Source of the DNA: Pedobacter sp.
GTDB lineage: Bacteria; Bacteroidota; Bacteroidia; Sphingobacteriales; Sphingobacteriaceae
Direction of reading: 5' to 3'
DNA length: 48,992 bases
NCBI GenBank assembly: GCA_014377775.1
Contig: JACMOW010000202.1
Location: forward strand, 1 to 48,992
The position numbers and the translations under genes were made by a program. This document shows positions 2,411-47,018 of the stretch, piece after piece. The notes under the pieces were generated by a model, which was not told the origin of the DNA, ran no database searches, and saw only the letters and a program-made list of their open reading frames with translations. Within the stretch, counting starts at the first letter, position 1; each line of letters starts with the position of its first letter.

Positions 2411-3010
2411 TTGAATTTAAAGTCTTACATAGAAAGCGGTATCATAGAATGGTATGTGCTTAATGATTTGCCTGTTGATGAAAAGCGAGGGTTCGAGCGC
2501 ATGCTTCGTACTTATCCAGAATTGAGAGAGGAGTTAAATGCAATAGAATTAGCCCTACAAAGCTATGCCACATCTCAAAAGATTATGCCACCCCATTATT
2601 TACAAGAAAAAGTAGTTAAATCGTTGTTAAACTTGGAAAAGGAAAAGGCGATGGATATCGAGGATTTACCCCTCATTGATCGATTTTCCGACTATAAAAA
2701 TTGGTTGCCAATGGTAGAAAGATTAGGCGAATTGCCGTTAGCAGATGATGGTAGATGTGTTAAGATTCTTCGCTGTGATGAACAAGTTACCCAAACACTT
2801 ATCGTATCTACTACTGATATTGAAGAAGAAACGCATGAAGATGAATACGAAAGTTTCTTAATACTTTCTGGCGCATGTAAATGTACCATCGGAGATAACA
2901 TACGGTTTATGGAAGCTGGAGATTACATGGAAATTCCACTACATATGTTACACAATGTAGCACTAGTTTCGGAAAGTGTAGTGGCTATTTTGCAACGGAT
3001 AAGAAGATAA
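2411..3010 (+). CDS. Anti-sigma-factor-like N-terminus fused to cupin (ChrR-like)
   Basis: TTG start; N-term LKSYIESGIIEWYVLNDLPVDEKRGFERMLRTYPEL typical of Bacteroidota anti-sigma proteins; C-term cupin-like HEDEYESFLILSGACKCTIGDNIRFMEAGDYMEIPLHMLHNV. Confidence 0.75.
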   Translation: MNLKSYIESGIIEWYVLNDLPVDEKRGFERMLRTYPELREELNAIELALQSYATSQKIMPPHYLQEKVVKSLLNLEKEKAMDIEDLPLIDRFSDYKNWLPMVERLGELPLADDGRCVKILRCDEQVTQTLIVSTTDIEEETHEDEYESFLILSGACKCTIGDNIRFMEAGDYMEIPLHMLHNVALVSESVVAILQRIRR

Positions 3011-43130: not shown

Positions 43131-43322
43131 CTAGTGTTTTACAGTTGAATCTTTAACTGTAGTATCAGTAGTAACAACAGTATCAGTGATAGTAGTGTCT
43201 GCATTGATAGTAGTGTCAGAACCTATAGTATCAGCACCTTCTGCTTTTTTCTCTGAATTACAAGCTGCTACTGATAAAGATAATGCTAAAGCTAAAAAGC
43301 CAAATTTAAATAAGTTTTTCAT
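43131..43322 (-). CDS. Small Thr/Asp-rich lipoprotein
   Basis: Signal peptide with lipobox VAACNS; tail DTIGSDTTINADTTITDTVVTTDTTVKDSTVKH. Confidence 0.8.
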   Translation of the reverse strand: MKNLFKFGFLALALSLSVAACNSEKKAEGADTIGSDTTINADTTITDTVVTTDTTVKDSTVKH

Positions 43323-43646
43323 TCTAATTTTCTGTTTAAATAATTAATTAATTTACTTGTTAATACGGCAAAGTTAAAAAGGTAACCCGTAAATTTGAAA
43401 AAAAGTTAATATTATTTTTTTATCACTCAATGGGATAAGGCTATGGCTGTTTTTAATTAAATATCATCATAAGTTTACACTTACAAATGCAATAAATAAA
43501 ACTCCTGATAGCTTCATTATCGTTAAAAATGAAATTATATCCCAATGAAAATTTGTTGTATTTTGCAAGAAAAATGGTTGAAAAATAGAATTTATGATTT
43601 TTTTTTCAATTGTTGGGTTACCATTCACATTAAAATGTATTAATTA

Positions 43647-44213
43647 GTGAGTATTAAGTTAAGCAGTTCAATTCCAACAGATAGAGAAGTAGTATTAGGT
43701 ATACTTAATAACTCAGAAGAAGCACTTAATAAGTTGTATTTAGGCTATTTTCCAATGGTTTTGCAATTTATTTTAAATAATAGTGGCGATGAGGCGGATG
43801 CAAAGGATGTATATCAAGAAGCCATTATTGTTTTATATGATAAAATTAAGAGTGGTAAATTTGAGTTAAGTAGTAAACTCAAAACATATTTATATTCAGT
43901 AAGTAGACGTATTTGGTTAAAGAAGCTTGCACAACAAAGTAAAAAAACGAATAATATTGCTGATTTTGAAGATGTATTAGCTGTAGACGAAGATTTTGAG
44001 CGGCATGAAGAAAAAGACCAGCAATTTGATCAAATGAAGAAAGCCTTAGATAATTTAGGCGAACCTTGCAAAACGATTATTCAGGATTTTTATATCCATA
44101 ATCTATCAATGCAAGACATTTGTGAAAAATTTGGTTATACCAATACAGATAATGCAAAGACACAAAAATATAAGTGTTTACAACGGTTAAAAAAGTTATT
44201 TTTTCAATTATAA
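43647..44213 (+). CDS. ECF-type RNA polymerase sigma factor
   Basis: GTG start; region 2 YFPMVLQFILNNSGDEADAKDVYQEAIIVLYDKIKSGKF; region 4 LGEPCKTIIQDFYIHNLSMQDICEKFGYTNTDNAKTQKYKCLQRLKKLF. Confidence 0.92.
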   Translation: MSIKLSSSIPTDREVVLGILNNSEEALNKLYLGYFPMVLQFILNNSGDEADAKDVYQEAIIVLYDKIKSGKFELSSKLKTYLYSVSRRIWLKKLAQQSKKTNNIADFEDVLAVDEDFERHEEKDQQFDQMKKALDNLGEPCKTIIQDFYIHNLSMQDICEKFGYTNTDNAKTQKYKCLQRLKKLFFQL

Positions 44214-44214
44214 A

Positions 44215-45303
44215 ATGAACAACGACATTCAGTTAGAATCGATTATTGAAGATTATTTAAACGGTAGGCTTAATCCAGCAGAGTTAGCTGCTTTCGAACA
44301 ATTACGGAGCAATGATCCAGTTGTTGATCATAAGGTTGTTGCGCATAATTTTTTTTTAGAATCTATGCAGAAATATGCTGAAACTTCGATTTTAAAGGCG
44401 CAAATGGATAACGCCCATATCGAAATAGATGTATATGAAATTAGTGCCAAAGTTAAACCACATTCTTCAAAAGTGGTTAGAATTTGGCGCAATAATAAAT
44501 CTGCAATTGCGATAGCCGCTTCATTTCTAATTATGGCAAGCGCTGTTTTGCTGTCTAGCTATAGCCTCAATAAACAAGAAGGTAATTTGCAATTGTTGGA
44601 TAGAAAGGTTTCTCAACTCAATCAATCACAAAACAATATTATTAGAGTAATCACAAACGATGCTCAAAAGGCAAATCGTGCTCCAGCAAAATTTGGTGGA
44701 ACCGGATTTGCCATTTCAAGTAATGGCTTTATTTTAACCAATTATCATGTAATTAAAGGCGCAGATTCATTATACATACAGAATAACAAAGGTGTTTCTT
44801 ATAAAGTAAAGAAATTTTATATGGATCCAGTTAATGATATTGCGATCCTAAAAGTTACTGATTTATCTTTCGTAAGCCTTGGTGCAGTACCCTATAGTAT
44901 AAAGAAAACGAACGCAGGTATTGGCGAAGCAGTTTATACTTTAGGTTATCCCAAAGATGATGTTGTACTTGGCGATGGTTATGTAAGTTCTAAAACAGGA
45001 ATTAATGGTGATACCCTCGCTTACCAAATCGCTATTCCGGTTAACCCAGGAAATAGCGGCGGCCCATTGCTAGACAACAACGGGAACATCGTTGGCGTGA
45101 TTAATGGCAAAGAAGATAAAACAGATGGGGCAGCATTTGCAGTAAAATCACGCTACATTATCGAAGCCCTAAACGCTATTCCTCAAGACTCATTAAGCAA
45201 AAGAGTAGGCTACGGAAAGAAAAGCATATTACAAGGCTTAAAACGTAATCAACAAGTTGAAAAAATTCAAGATTATGTTTTTATGATCAAGGTATATAAT
45301 TAA
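44215..45303 (+). CDS. Anti-sigma-like N-term / TM / trypsin-like serine protease fusion
   Basis: N-term SIIEDYLNGRLNPAELAAFEQLRSNDP; TM SAIAIAASFLIMASAVLLSSYSL; protease TGFAISSNGFILTNYHVIKG, DPVNDIAILKV, PVNPGNSGGPLLDNNGNIVGVING; starts 2 nt after the sigma stop. Confidence 0.88.
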   Translation: MNNDIQLESIIEDYLNGRLNPAELAAFEQLRSNDPVVDHKVVAHNFFLESMQKYAETSILKAQMDNAHIEIDVYEISAKVKPHSSKVVRIWRNNKSAIAIAASFLIMASAVLLSSYSLNKQEGNLQLLDRKVSQLNQSQNNIIRVITNDAQKANRAPAKFGGTGFAISSNGFILTNYHVIKGADSLYIQNNKGVSYKVKKFYMDPVNDIAILKVTDLSFVSLGAVPYSIKKTNAGIGEAVYTLGYPKDDVVLGDGYVSSKTGINGDTLAYQIAIPVNPGNSGGPLLDNNGNIVGVINGKEDKTDGAAFAVKSRYIIEALNAIPQDSLSKRVGYGKKSILQGLKRNQQVEKIQDYVFMIKVYN

Positions 45304-45322: not shown

Positions 45323-45362
45323 AAAACCCTGTGGTATAAAAGCTTCAGGGTTTTATTTTTTT
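45323..45362 (+). terminator. Intrinsic terminator after the sigma/protease operon
   Basis: AAAACCCTG ... CAGGGTTTT then ATTTTTTTT. Confidence 0.8.
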
Positions 45363-45400
45363 TATTTGCGTCGTCAATTTAGACGATTTATTAAATTACT

Positions 45401-46327
45401 ATGGAATTTGGACGCGTTGAACATTCAGAAATAAAAGCGATTGATTTTACCCTACCAAAAGATGGTGATCAAACTTCAATTACACTAAAGCCTTTAAAAA
45501 ATAAAGCAAATTCCGAATTTTACGTGGGCTGTGCCAAATGGGGAAGAAAGGAGTGGATTGGCCTTATCTATCCAGAGAAAACAAAAGAAAAGGAATTTTT
45601 GGGTGCATATGTTAAGCATTTTAATTCGATAGAATTAAACGCTGTTTTTTATAGCATCCCCAAAGAAGATCAAATTTTGAAATGGAAGGCCATGGTCGAA
45701 GCCAATACAAACAAAGATTTTATCTTTTGTCCGAAATTTTCTAGGACCATCACCCATATCAAACGCTTTAACAATGTGGATGCAGAAACTGACAACTATT
45801 TGAAAGCTATTACTGCATTTGGTAACCAGCTAGGGCCTTGTTTTTTACAGGTAAGCGATAACTTCAGTCCAAAAAACCTTCCCATCCTCGAAGCGTATCT
45901 CAAGAAATTACCAGTAGATTTTAATGTGTTTATAGAAGTTAGACATGAAGATTGGTTTAAAGATAAGAATGCAAGAAAGGAATTATTTCAAATGTTGGCC
46001 AAATTGGGTAAAGGTGCAGCCATTACTGATTCAAGTGGACGAAGGGACTGTGTGCACATGGAATTAACCACCCCCGAAGCCTTCATTCGCTTTGTGGGTA
46101 ATGGTGGTGCATTTTTAGATTCTGATAAAGCCCGAATCGATGAGTGGGTAATTCGGATTAAGCAATGGTTAGATCAAGGATTGGAAAAGGTTTACTTCTT
46201 TTTGCATCAACATGATGAGGCAGATACACCCTTAATTGCCGATCATACGATTGAACAATTTAACAAAAAACTAGGAAGTAATTTAGCACGGATCAATTTT
46301 ATAACAAAACAAGGAGGATTATTTTAG
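45401..46327 (+). CDS. DUF72 family protein
   Basis: FYVGCAKWGRKEWIGLIYPEKTKEKEFLGAYVKHFNSIELNAVFYSIP, FCPKFSRTITH, FIEVRHEDWF. Confidence 0.92.
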   Translation: MEFGRVEHSEIKAIDFTLPKDGDQTSITLKPLKNKANSEFYVGCAKWGRKEWIGLIYPEKTKEKEFLGAYVKHFNSIELNAVFYSIPKEDQILKWKAMVEANTNKDFIFCPKFSRTITHIKRFNNVDAETDNYLKAITAFGNQLGPCFLQVSDNFSPKNLPILEAYLKKLPVDFNVFIEVRHEDWFKDKNARKELFQMLAKLGKGAAITDSSGRRDCVHMELTTPEAFIRFVGNGGAFLDSDKARIDEWVIRIKQWLDQGLEKVYFFLHQHDEADTPLIADHTIEQFNKKLGSNLARINFITKQGGLF

Positions 46328-46382: not shown

Positions 46383-47018
46383 ATGAGTTTAAGAATTGGA
46401 GATACCGCACCGAACTTTAAAGCTATAACATCTATCGGAGAAATAGATTTTTACGAATATTTGGGTGACAGTTGGGGCGTTTTATTCTCGCATCCGGCTG
46501 ATTATACACCAGTTTGCACAACAGAACTGGGTAAAACAGCATCACTAAAGCCAGAATTTGATCAACGAAATGTAAAAGTTTTAGCACTAAGTGTTGATTC
46601 TGCCGAATCACACAAAGGATGGATTAGCGATATTAATGAAACTCAAAACACGAATGTAGAATTTCCAATTATTGCCGATCAGGATAAGAAAATAGCCGAT
46701 GCCTATGATATGATTCATCCCAATGCCTCAGAAACAATGACGGTTCGTTCTTTATTTGTGATTTCTCCAGATAAGAAAGTGAAATTAATGATTATCTACC
46801 CAGCATCTACAGGGCGTAACTTTGTAGAAGTTTTAAGAGTAATCGATTCCTTACAGTTAACTGCTAAATATAGCGTAGCAACACCTGCAGATTGGAAAGA
46901 TGGTGAAGATGTAATTGTAATGAATAGCATTAAAACAGAAGATATTCCTGCTAAGTTTCCAAAAGGATATACCGTAATTAAACCTTATTTAAGAACTACA
47001 CCGCAACCGAATAAATAG
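46383..47018 (+). CDS. 1-Cys-type (Prx6-like) peroxiredoxin
   Basis: IGDTAPNF, LFSHPADYTPVCTTELGKTA, YPASTGRNFVEVLRVIDSLQ, FPKGYTVIKPYLRTTPQP. Confidence 0.94.
   Translation: MSLRIGDTAPNFKAITSIGEIDFYEYLGDSWGVLFSHPADYTPVCTTELGKTASLKPEFDQRNVKVLALSVDSAESHKGWISDINETQNTNVEFPIIADQDKKIADAYDMIHPNASETMTVRSLFVISPDKKVKLMIIYPASTGRNFVEVLRVIDSLQLTAKYSVATPADWKDGEDVIVMNSIKTEDIPAKFPKGYTVIKPYLRTTPQPNK

Follow-up and report, generated by a model that had tools for sequence, protein, structure and literature searches.

The window analysed here is the whole of a 48,992-nucleotide stretch of Pedobacter sp. DNA (contig JACMOW010000202.1). It contains an ECF sigma factor gene followed on the same strand by a gene whose product appears to join an anti-sigma domain, a transmembrane (TM) helix and an HtrA-type serine protease in one polypeptide; a small lipoprotein gene lies upstream on the other strand and is divergently oriented. 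The features of this locus are the following (positions in the window, strand, feature, and the basis of the assignment in parentheses):

43131..43322, minus strand: gene of a small lipoprotein rich in Thr and Asp, 63 aa with the lipobox LSVAAC (predicted to belong to the sigma regulon)
43361..43388, minus strand: promoter-like site GGGTTAC-N15-GTATTA of the lipoprotein gene (exact match in its own genome)
43615..43642, plus strand: promoter-like site GGGTTAC-N15-GTATTA of the sigma operon (exact match; predicted autoregulation)
43647..44213, plus strand: ECF sigma factor gene, GTG start, 188 aa (TIGR02937, 1.1e-24)
44215..45303, plus strand: gene of the anti-sigma/TM/HtrA-type protease fusion, 362 aa (family matches, AlphaFold model)
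44215..44466, plus strand: predicted anti-sigma domain, residues 1-84, cytoplasmic by topology (hhalign, joint model)
44494..44568, plus strand: single TM helix, about residues 94-118 (hydropathy; model helix 86-117)
44569..44688, plus strand: linker of low conservation with a short helix, residues 119-158, ~40 residues (conservation, pLDDT)
44689..45189, plus strand: HtrA-type serine protease domain, residues 159-325 (Trypsin_2, nearest structures)
44746..44748, plus strand: codon of the catalytic His178, in NYHVI (invariant where aligned)
44836..44838, plus strand: codon of the catalytic Asp208, in NDIAI (invariant where aligned)
45055..45057, plus strand: codon of the catalytic Ser281, in GNSGGP (invariant)
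45190..45300, plus strand: conserved C-terminal tail (helix and strand), residues 326-362, in the place of a PDZ domain (model, secreted relatives)
45323..45366, plus strand: likely intrinsic terminator (fold -15.3 kcal/mol, z -4.5, then a T tract)

The sigma and fusion ORFs lie one base apart (TAA A ATG). The original prediction had located both of them exactly to the base, its wording that the second begins "2 nt later" being imprecise (the ATG is at 44215). The hairpin and T tract 3' of the fusion gene make the two genes look like a complete operon. (This terminator does not figure in the list of a consensus scan, whose loop rule is stricter.) Farther downstream are a DUF72-like gene (45401-46327) and a peroxiredoxin-like gene (46383-47018), both named by reading of the sequence, which keep their places near the sigma locus in 21 and 37, respectively, of 62 loci.

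The sigma protein matches Sigma70_r2 (1.9e-8) and, over residues 25-183, the ECF superfamily model TIGR02937. Region 4 has no match to its own Pfam model, yet it lies inside the TIGR02937 span; the protein has regions 2 and 4 and no other sigma region, as an ECF sigma should. The subfamily is conserved and its recognition helix region, FGYTN-DNAK-QKYKC, is nearly invariant. Scanning one genome per species yields 62 full-length or nearly full-length relatives of the fusion, distributed over Pedobacter, other Sphingobacteriales, Chitinophagaceae, Niabella, Edaphocola, Taibaiella and Flavipsychrobacter; within the genus, a strong match is present in 23 of the 24 genomes searched, all but G014 (referred to again below). 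Every full-length relative for which there is upstream DNA has the sigma gene immediately 5' of it on the same strand. The search for this two-gene architecture across Bacteroidota that had been suggested at the outset finds the fusion with its membrane part in 29 of 396 genomes, always beside the sigma, and the sigma at E <= 4e-77 in 29 of the 396, these being the same 29 genomes. (After these, the sigma scores in this sample go down from 259 bits to 167.) Conservation of the two-gene unit in all full-length relatives with upstream DNA excludes chance, and the occurrence of the fusion in many independent genomes disposes of the notion that it is an accident or an artefact of assembly. No split version was seen: the fusion is intact in all the members found, which belong to several families of a single class. 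The fusion was not found in unrelated phyla, the weak matches outside Bacteroidota being to ordinary secreted proteases.

A Pfam scan of the window's fusion protein gives no direct match at the N-terminus, and it is for this reason that the nearest relatives of the window sigma in other families (its sister sigmas) were examined. Several of them directly precede membrane anti-sigmas of the same plan with different C-termini, which are disordered and then beta-rich in one set (L226-L228) and a TPR domain in another case (L237); others directly precede zf-HC2 anti-sigmas (L230, L232, L233, L236) or unrelated genes (L234, L235, L238, L240). When residues 1-84 are compared by hhalign with the first group of these anti-sigmas (L226-L228 with L237) the score is 97% (E 1e-11), and with the zf-HC2 group it is 93% (E 3e-7); the controls (reversed templates, column-shuffled templates and the sigma alignment) reach at most 1.5%. 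The likeness that had been remarked between this N-terminus and the anti-sigma encoded at 2411 is also recovered by profile comparison (71%, E 4e-5, residues 9-52). Homology in these comparisons, together with the location of the gene beside its sigma, makes residues 1-84 a likely anti-sigma domain of the class I type; they lack the zinc motif HxxxCxxC, which is common but not required in class I. These residues thus derive from ordinary anti-sigma domains. Since the periplasmic parts of the anti-sigmas beside several of the closest sister sigmas are not proteases, the protease appears to be a module that was swapped in.

The protein encoded at 2411-3010 is itself a cupin anti-sigma of the ChrR kind (NF052375 4.8e-7, Cupin_2 2.8e-8); its gene sits between those of a multi-PAS protein and a response regulator, and no sigma gene was recognised beside it among the neighbours examined. 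Family f25 members L121 and L122 (L137, L138) lack residues 1-40 of the anti-sigma (helix 1, helix 2 and the beginning of helix 3). Their proteins retain the helix-4 segment, the TM helix and the protease, and their loci retain the sigma and the promoter sites; these fusions may represent a natural minimal anti-sigma. Helix 4 of known class I anti-sigma domains contacts sigma region 2 (PMC7406223).

In 23 distinct loci the sigma and anti-sigma share one reading frame with a single stop codon between them. One such relative (L007; sigma 85% and fusion 69% identical to those of the window) was modelled as a single chain, sigma plus residues 1-84, with the intervening stop read as Gly. The AlphaFold model of the N-terminus with the sigma, which had been proposed as a check, is a confident one in this relative (pTM 0.82; pLDDT about 93-96 over the anti-sigma helices of the single read-through chain), but its global superposition on solved sigma/anti-sigma chains is poor (TM 0.29); its best structural matches are to the sigma chains of the AlgU-MucA and sigmaE-RseA complexes. 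The model supports a specific sigma/anti-sigma complex but does not prove one. The original interpretation therefore stands in so far as it took the protein for an anti-sigma/TM/protease fusion that is likely, judging by its pairing (29 of 29 genomes), the profiles and the joint model, to be the anti-sigma of the adjacent ECF sigma; its further suggestion, that the protease may cut its own stalk or gate the sigma, draws on analogy and conservation.

Hydropathy confirms one TM helix (the best 21-residue stretch starts at residue 96-98). Basic residues lie on its N side (KVVRIWRNNK), so that, by the positive-inside rule, residues 1-84 should be cytoplasmic and the protease periplasmic. The linker that follows is the least conserved part of the fusion protein; pLDDT is below 50 over much of residues 117-155 in the AlphaFold model of the whole fusion (mean pLDDT 77, with about 90 for the protease, 72-89 for the anti-sigma helices and low confidence for the TM helix), and the alignment of relatives offers no strictly conserved cleavage motif in the linker. 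Its short helix may aid trimer formation. Pairwise dN/dS values, for which several of the dS values are saturated, are 0.03-0.07 for the sigma, 0.10-0.14 for the anti-sigma domain, 0.07-0.41 for the linker and, where dS is computable, 0.05-0.06 for the protease.

The trypsin-like domain that had been read from its motifs matches Trypsin_2 over residues 162-295 (6.1e-24); its nearest named families are the MarP and Do/DegP proteases, and its nearest solved structures are MucD, HtrA1 and PDZ-deleted DegS. The proposed catalytic triad is found in all aligned residues of 115 distinct relatives (H178, 113/113; D208, 114/114; S281, 115/115), and the absence of a PDZ domain is equally clear, there being no PDZ match and only 37 residues after residue 325, too few to fit one. 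With the His-Asp-Ser triad in a trypsin-like domain and no C-terminal PDZ, the fusion protease is HtrA-like in its catalytic domain and is not filed here as a DegS. It looks catalytically competent; a dead, sensor-only domain is unlikely, the triad being invariant where aligned. The C-terminal tail that takes the place of PDZ is confidently modelled (pLDDT about 92 at residues 341-360) and is also present in secreted proteases that have no anti-sigma part. The same PDZ-less protease and tail (xFVYIIxxx) occur in secreted proteins and lipoproteins of other Bacteroidota classes (L127-L134, L094, L096), which likewise have no anti-sigma part and do not have this sigma within about 2-3 kb.

The sequence GGGTTAC-N15-GTATTA has only two exact copies in the 3.17 Mb of its own genome: one is the site before the sigma gene (43615-43642), and the other is the divergent site (43388-43361), which lies 38 bases before the lipoprotein gene (43322-43131). 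(A third match of the motif in this genome, on contig C248, is inside a glycosyltransferase gene and was taken as chance; matches with two mismatches, which were fewer than the control count, were left out.) The site precedes the sigma gene in 104 of 108 distinct loci, with none in the reversed and complement controls. Divergent copies, usually 1-3 to a locus and 157 altogether, occur in 98 of the 108, again with none in the controls. A divergent lipoprotein gene is present in 103 of these loci, and in 94 there is a site less than 80 bases before it. By a hand count, 40 of the 42 exact sites in the 18 site-bearing Pedobacter genomes fall in the sigma locus, and G014, the genome without a strong fusion match, has no site even when one mismatch is allowed. 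In other Pedobacter genomes, sites far from the sigma locus stand before further lipoprotein genes of this kind (L164, L244, L246).

From the location of these sites, their co-occurrence with the sigma and the near-invariance of its recognition region, we infer that the window sigma reads GGGTTAC-N15-GTATTA. Promoters of E. coli sigmaE (GGAACTT-N15-GTCTAA) have the same geometry. A promoter shared by the sigma gene and the divergent lipoprotein genes makes the locus look like an autoregulated circuit of sigma, anti-sigma/protease and lipoproteins. Three features that the original prediction had missed together define this circuit: promoters in common, a small divergent lipoprotein and an apparent history of sensor exchange. 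What is new here is the shared promoter, which lies before the sigma gene and, in its divergent copies, mostly before small Thr/Asp-rich lipoprotein genes. In the window (43637-43649), 4 bases separate the end of the -10-like GTATTA before the sigma gene from the GTG start codon. The same arrangement, with GTG at 4 or a TTG at 1 immediately in front of it, recurs in 69 of 104 loci; the sigma gene may therefore have a leaderless mRNA or one that begins within the start codon.

The mature parts of the lipoproteins consist of T, A, K, D, V and S; aromatic residues are nearly absent. Placing the window's lipoprotein in the PG1828 family (NF050142) was considered and rejected: its 35 bits fall short of the cut-off of 50 (a relative scores 44), the match is one of low complexity, and lipoproteins of the PG1828 type in Flavobacteriaceae-like genomes lack a neighbouring sigma of this kind. 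PG1827 of Porphyromonas gingivalis is an ECF sigma (PMC4324044); the adjacency of the tag numbers PG1827 and PG1828 is only suggestive.

The reading that we favour, with about even confidence, is that of a self-processing switch, in which the fused protease would cut the linker of its own anti-sigma, an M50 protease would follow, and the sigma would be set free. It is built on the anatomy of the protein, its pairing with the sigma, the conserved triad, the shared promoter sites, and the presence of an M50 site-2 protease in the same genome (8.5e-60). The cytoplasmic helical domain would hold the sigma inactive, with the periplasmic PDZ-less protease standing where the usual sensor domain would be. 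Unfolded or unstructured envelope proteins would engage and activate the protease, which would then cut the exposed linker that runs from the membrane to the protease domain, either its own (in cis) or that of a neighbouring chain (in trans). The shortened stub would be cut in the membrane by an RseP-type site-2 protease and the remainder degraded; the freed sigma would transcribe its own operon, refilling the lock, and the genes of the small disordered lipoproteins. In this sequence of events, we infer binding in the cell, catalytic activity, self-cleavage, the nature of the trigger and the use of the promoters by the sigma.

Self-cleavage is made plausible by the ability of HtrA enzymes to shed their own N-terminal anchors and by the presence of the M50 site-2 protease. 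HtrAw of Brevibacillus, which resembles the fusion in having a TM segment, a short linker and an HtrA-type protease, sheds its N-terminal membrane anchor in trans upon encountering unstructured substrate; its active-site mutant does not, and autoprocessing is considered by its authors to be common among anchored HtrAs (PMC5359297). HtrAw differs in having a PDZ domain and no anti-sigma domain, and its processing requires that PDZ (PMC5359297), which counts against self-cleavage by a fusion that has none. Three other considerations count against it: a working protease in the chain might shed the linker constitutively, in which case a brake would be needed; a second, separate HtrA-like gene of the same genome (G000:C311) could provide the site-1 protease; and the linker contains no cleavage motif that is strictly conserved. 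DegS cuts RseA at Val148-Ser149; a similar pair in the linker, V132-S133, is only a candidate, since its first residue may be V, I, L or M. In a more elaborate version, to which we would commit ourselves more tentatively and somewhat short of evenly, an anti-sigma with its own site-1 protease would sense unstructured envelope protein through the active site, cut its own stalk and free the sigma, with an output consisting mainly of the sigma and the small disordered lipoproteins, which may in turn load the protease. If that is true, it would constitute a closed envelope-protein homeostat in Sphingobacteriaceae, Chitinophagaceae-like and related families.

The separate HtrA-like gene also has a place in an alternative that we consider unlikely, according to which residues 1-84 are a true anti-sigma and the fused protease is an anchored quality-control enzyme that only degrades envelope proteins; another periplasmic protease (a DegP-like HtrA or Prc) would make the first cut, and cutting the stalk would free sigma and protease alike. 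The occurrence of the same protease domain in secreted proteins and lipoproteins without an anti-sigma part, implying that it works alone, also speaks for this alternative; retention of the fusion in every member of several families, with no split version, suggests instead that the covalent link matters. Less probable still is the proposal that the small lipoprotein of the regulon is the protease's real client or inhibitor, its occupancy of the enzyme setting the level of free sigma. The lipoprotein genes are indeed the most constant predicted target and neighbour (103/108 loci), and their products have the composition expected of unstructured chains, the kind of substrate that triggers HtrAw, but several loci have no detected lipoprotein and low-complexity lipoproteins of this kind are also found in genomes without this sigma. 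An alternative about as improbable makes the protease a binding sensor, in which substrate would shift the conformation across the membrane and loosen the sigma without cleavage, the triad being kept because destruction of the ligand resets the switch: the invariant triad fits such a reset equally well, and the non-catalytic periplasmic domains at the same place in the sisters (L226-L228, L237) imply that a sensing role is old, but a single TM helix and a poorly conserved linker of low model confidence would make a poor conformational relay.

The self-processing switch has recognisable relatives among known systems. In the RseA/DegS/RseP/sigmaE system of Escherichia coli, a single-pass anti-sigma also holds an ECF sigma, and a periplasmic HtrA-type protease and an M50 site-2 protease are at hand; here, in contrast, the anti-sigma and the HtrA-type protease are one polypeptide, without PDZ. 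The Dma anti-sigmas of Bacteroidota have the same succession of an N-terminal anti-sigma part, one TM helix, a disordered tether and an unusual C-terminal module, encoded beside an ECF sigma, but they end in a beta-barrel and partner ECF21 sigmas, whereas the fusion ends in a serine protease. The zf-HC2 (class I type) anti-sigmas share the homologous helical N-terminal domain followed by one TM helix; unlike them, the fusion has no zinc ligands and has a C-terminal protease. For RsgI of Clostridium thermocellum (PMC12203970) and the FecR-type anti-sigmas (PMC8144685), a periplasmic or extracellular cut of the anti-sigma precedes RseP, as is proposed here, but these proteins self-cleave without any protease domain and the fusion has a full serine protease. 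BlaR1/MecR1 (PMC7593790) likewise unite a sensor and a protease within a single membrane protein through which a transcription regulator is controlled, but they cut a repressor by means of a metalloprotease that faces the cytoplasm, and they are not anti-sigmas. Our proposed reading, by analogy, is that the fusion would work like the RseA/DegS kind of switch, being itself neither a DegS, nor a Dma, nor of the RsgI/FecR type. No description of an anti-sigma fused to a trypsin-like protease was found in the literature searched, which comprised neither subscription papers nor the main ECF classification; the latter may list the architecture as a domain arrangement.

All of this suggests that, in a soil-type bacterium of the Pedobacter group and in its relatives, one protein may serve as sensor, lock and scissors, for which textbook systems use several. 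According to PMC7406223, class I anti-sigma domains are encoded close to only 6% of Bacteroidetes ECFs, and it is otherwise not clear how these sigmas are regulated. A lock and protease in one piece, with a conserved promoter motif that predicts targets, would make this a testable question, and the predicted target set can be named: small lipoproteins of unknown function. Two further observations touch on the reach of such circuits. In two Pedobacter genomes, orthologous small membrane protein genes (L243, MEIVKSVFSF..; L245, MQFIKTVFAF..) start 9-16 bases after a GGGTTAC site with one mismatch and are likely to be further members of the regulon. Two of the sister ECF sigmas (L234, L235), which lie directly upstream of small secreted thioredoxin-like proteins, are preceded by a site close to GGGTGAT-N-GTATT, possibly marking a related circuit.
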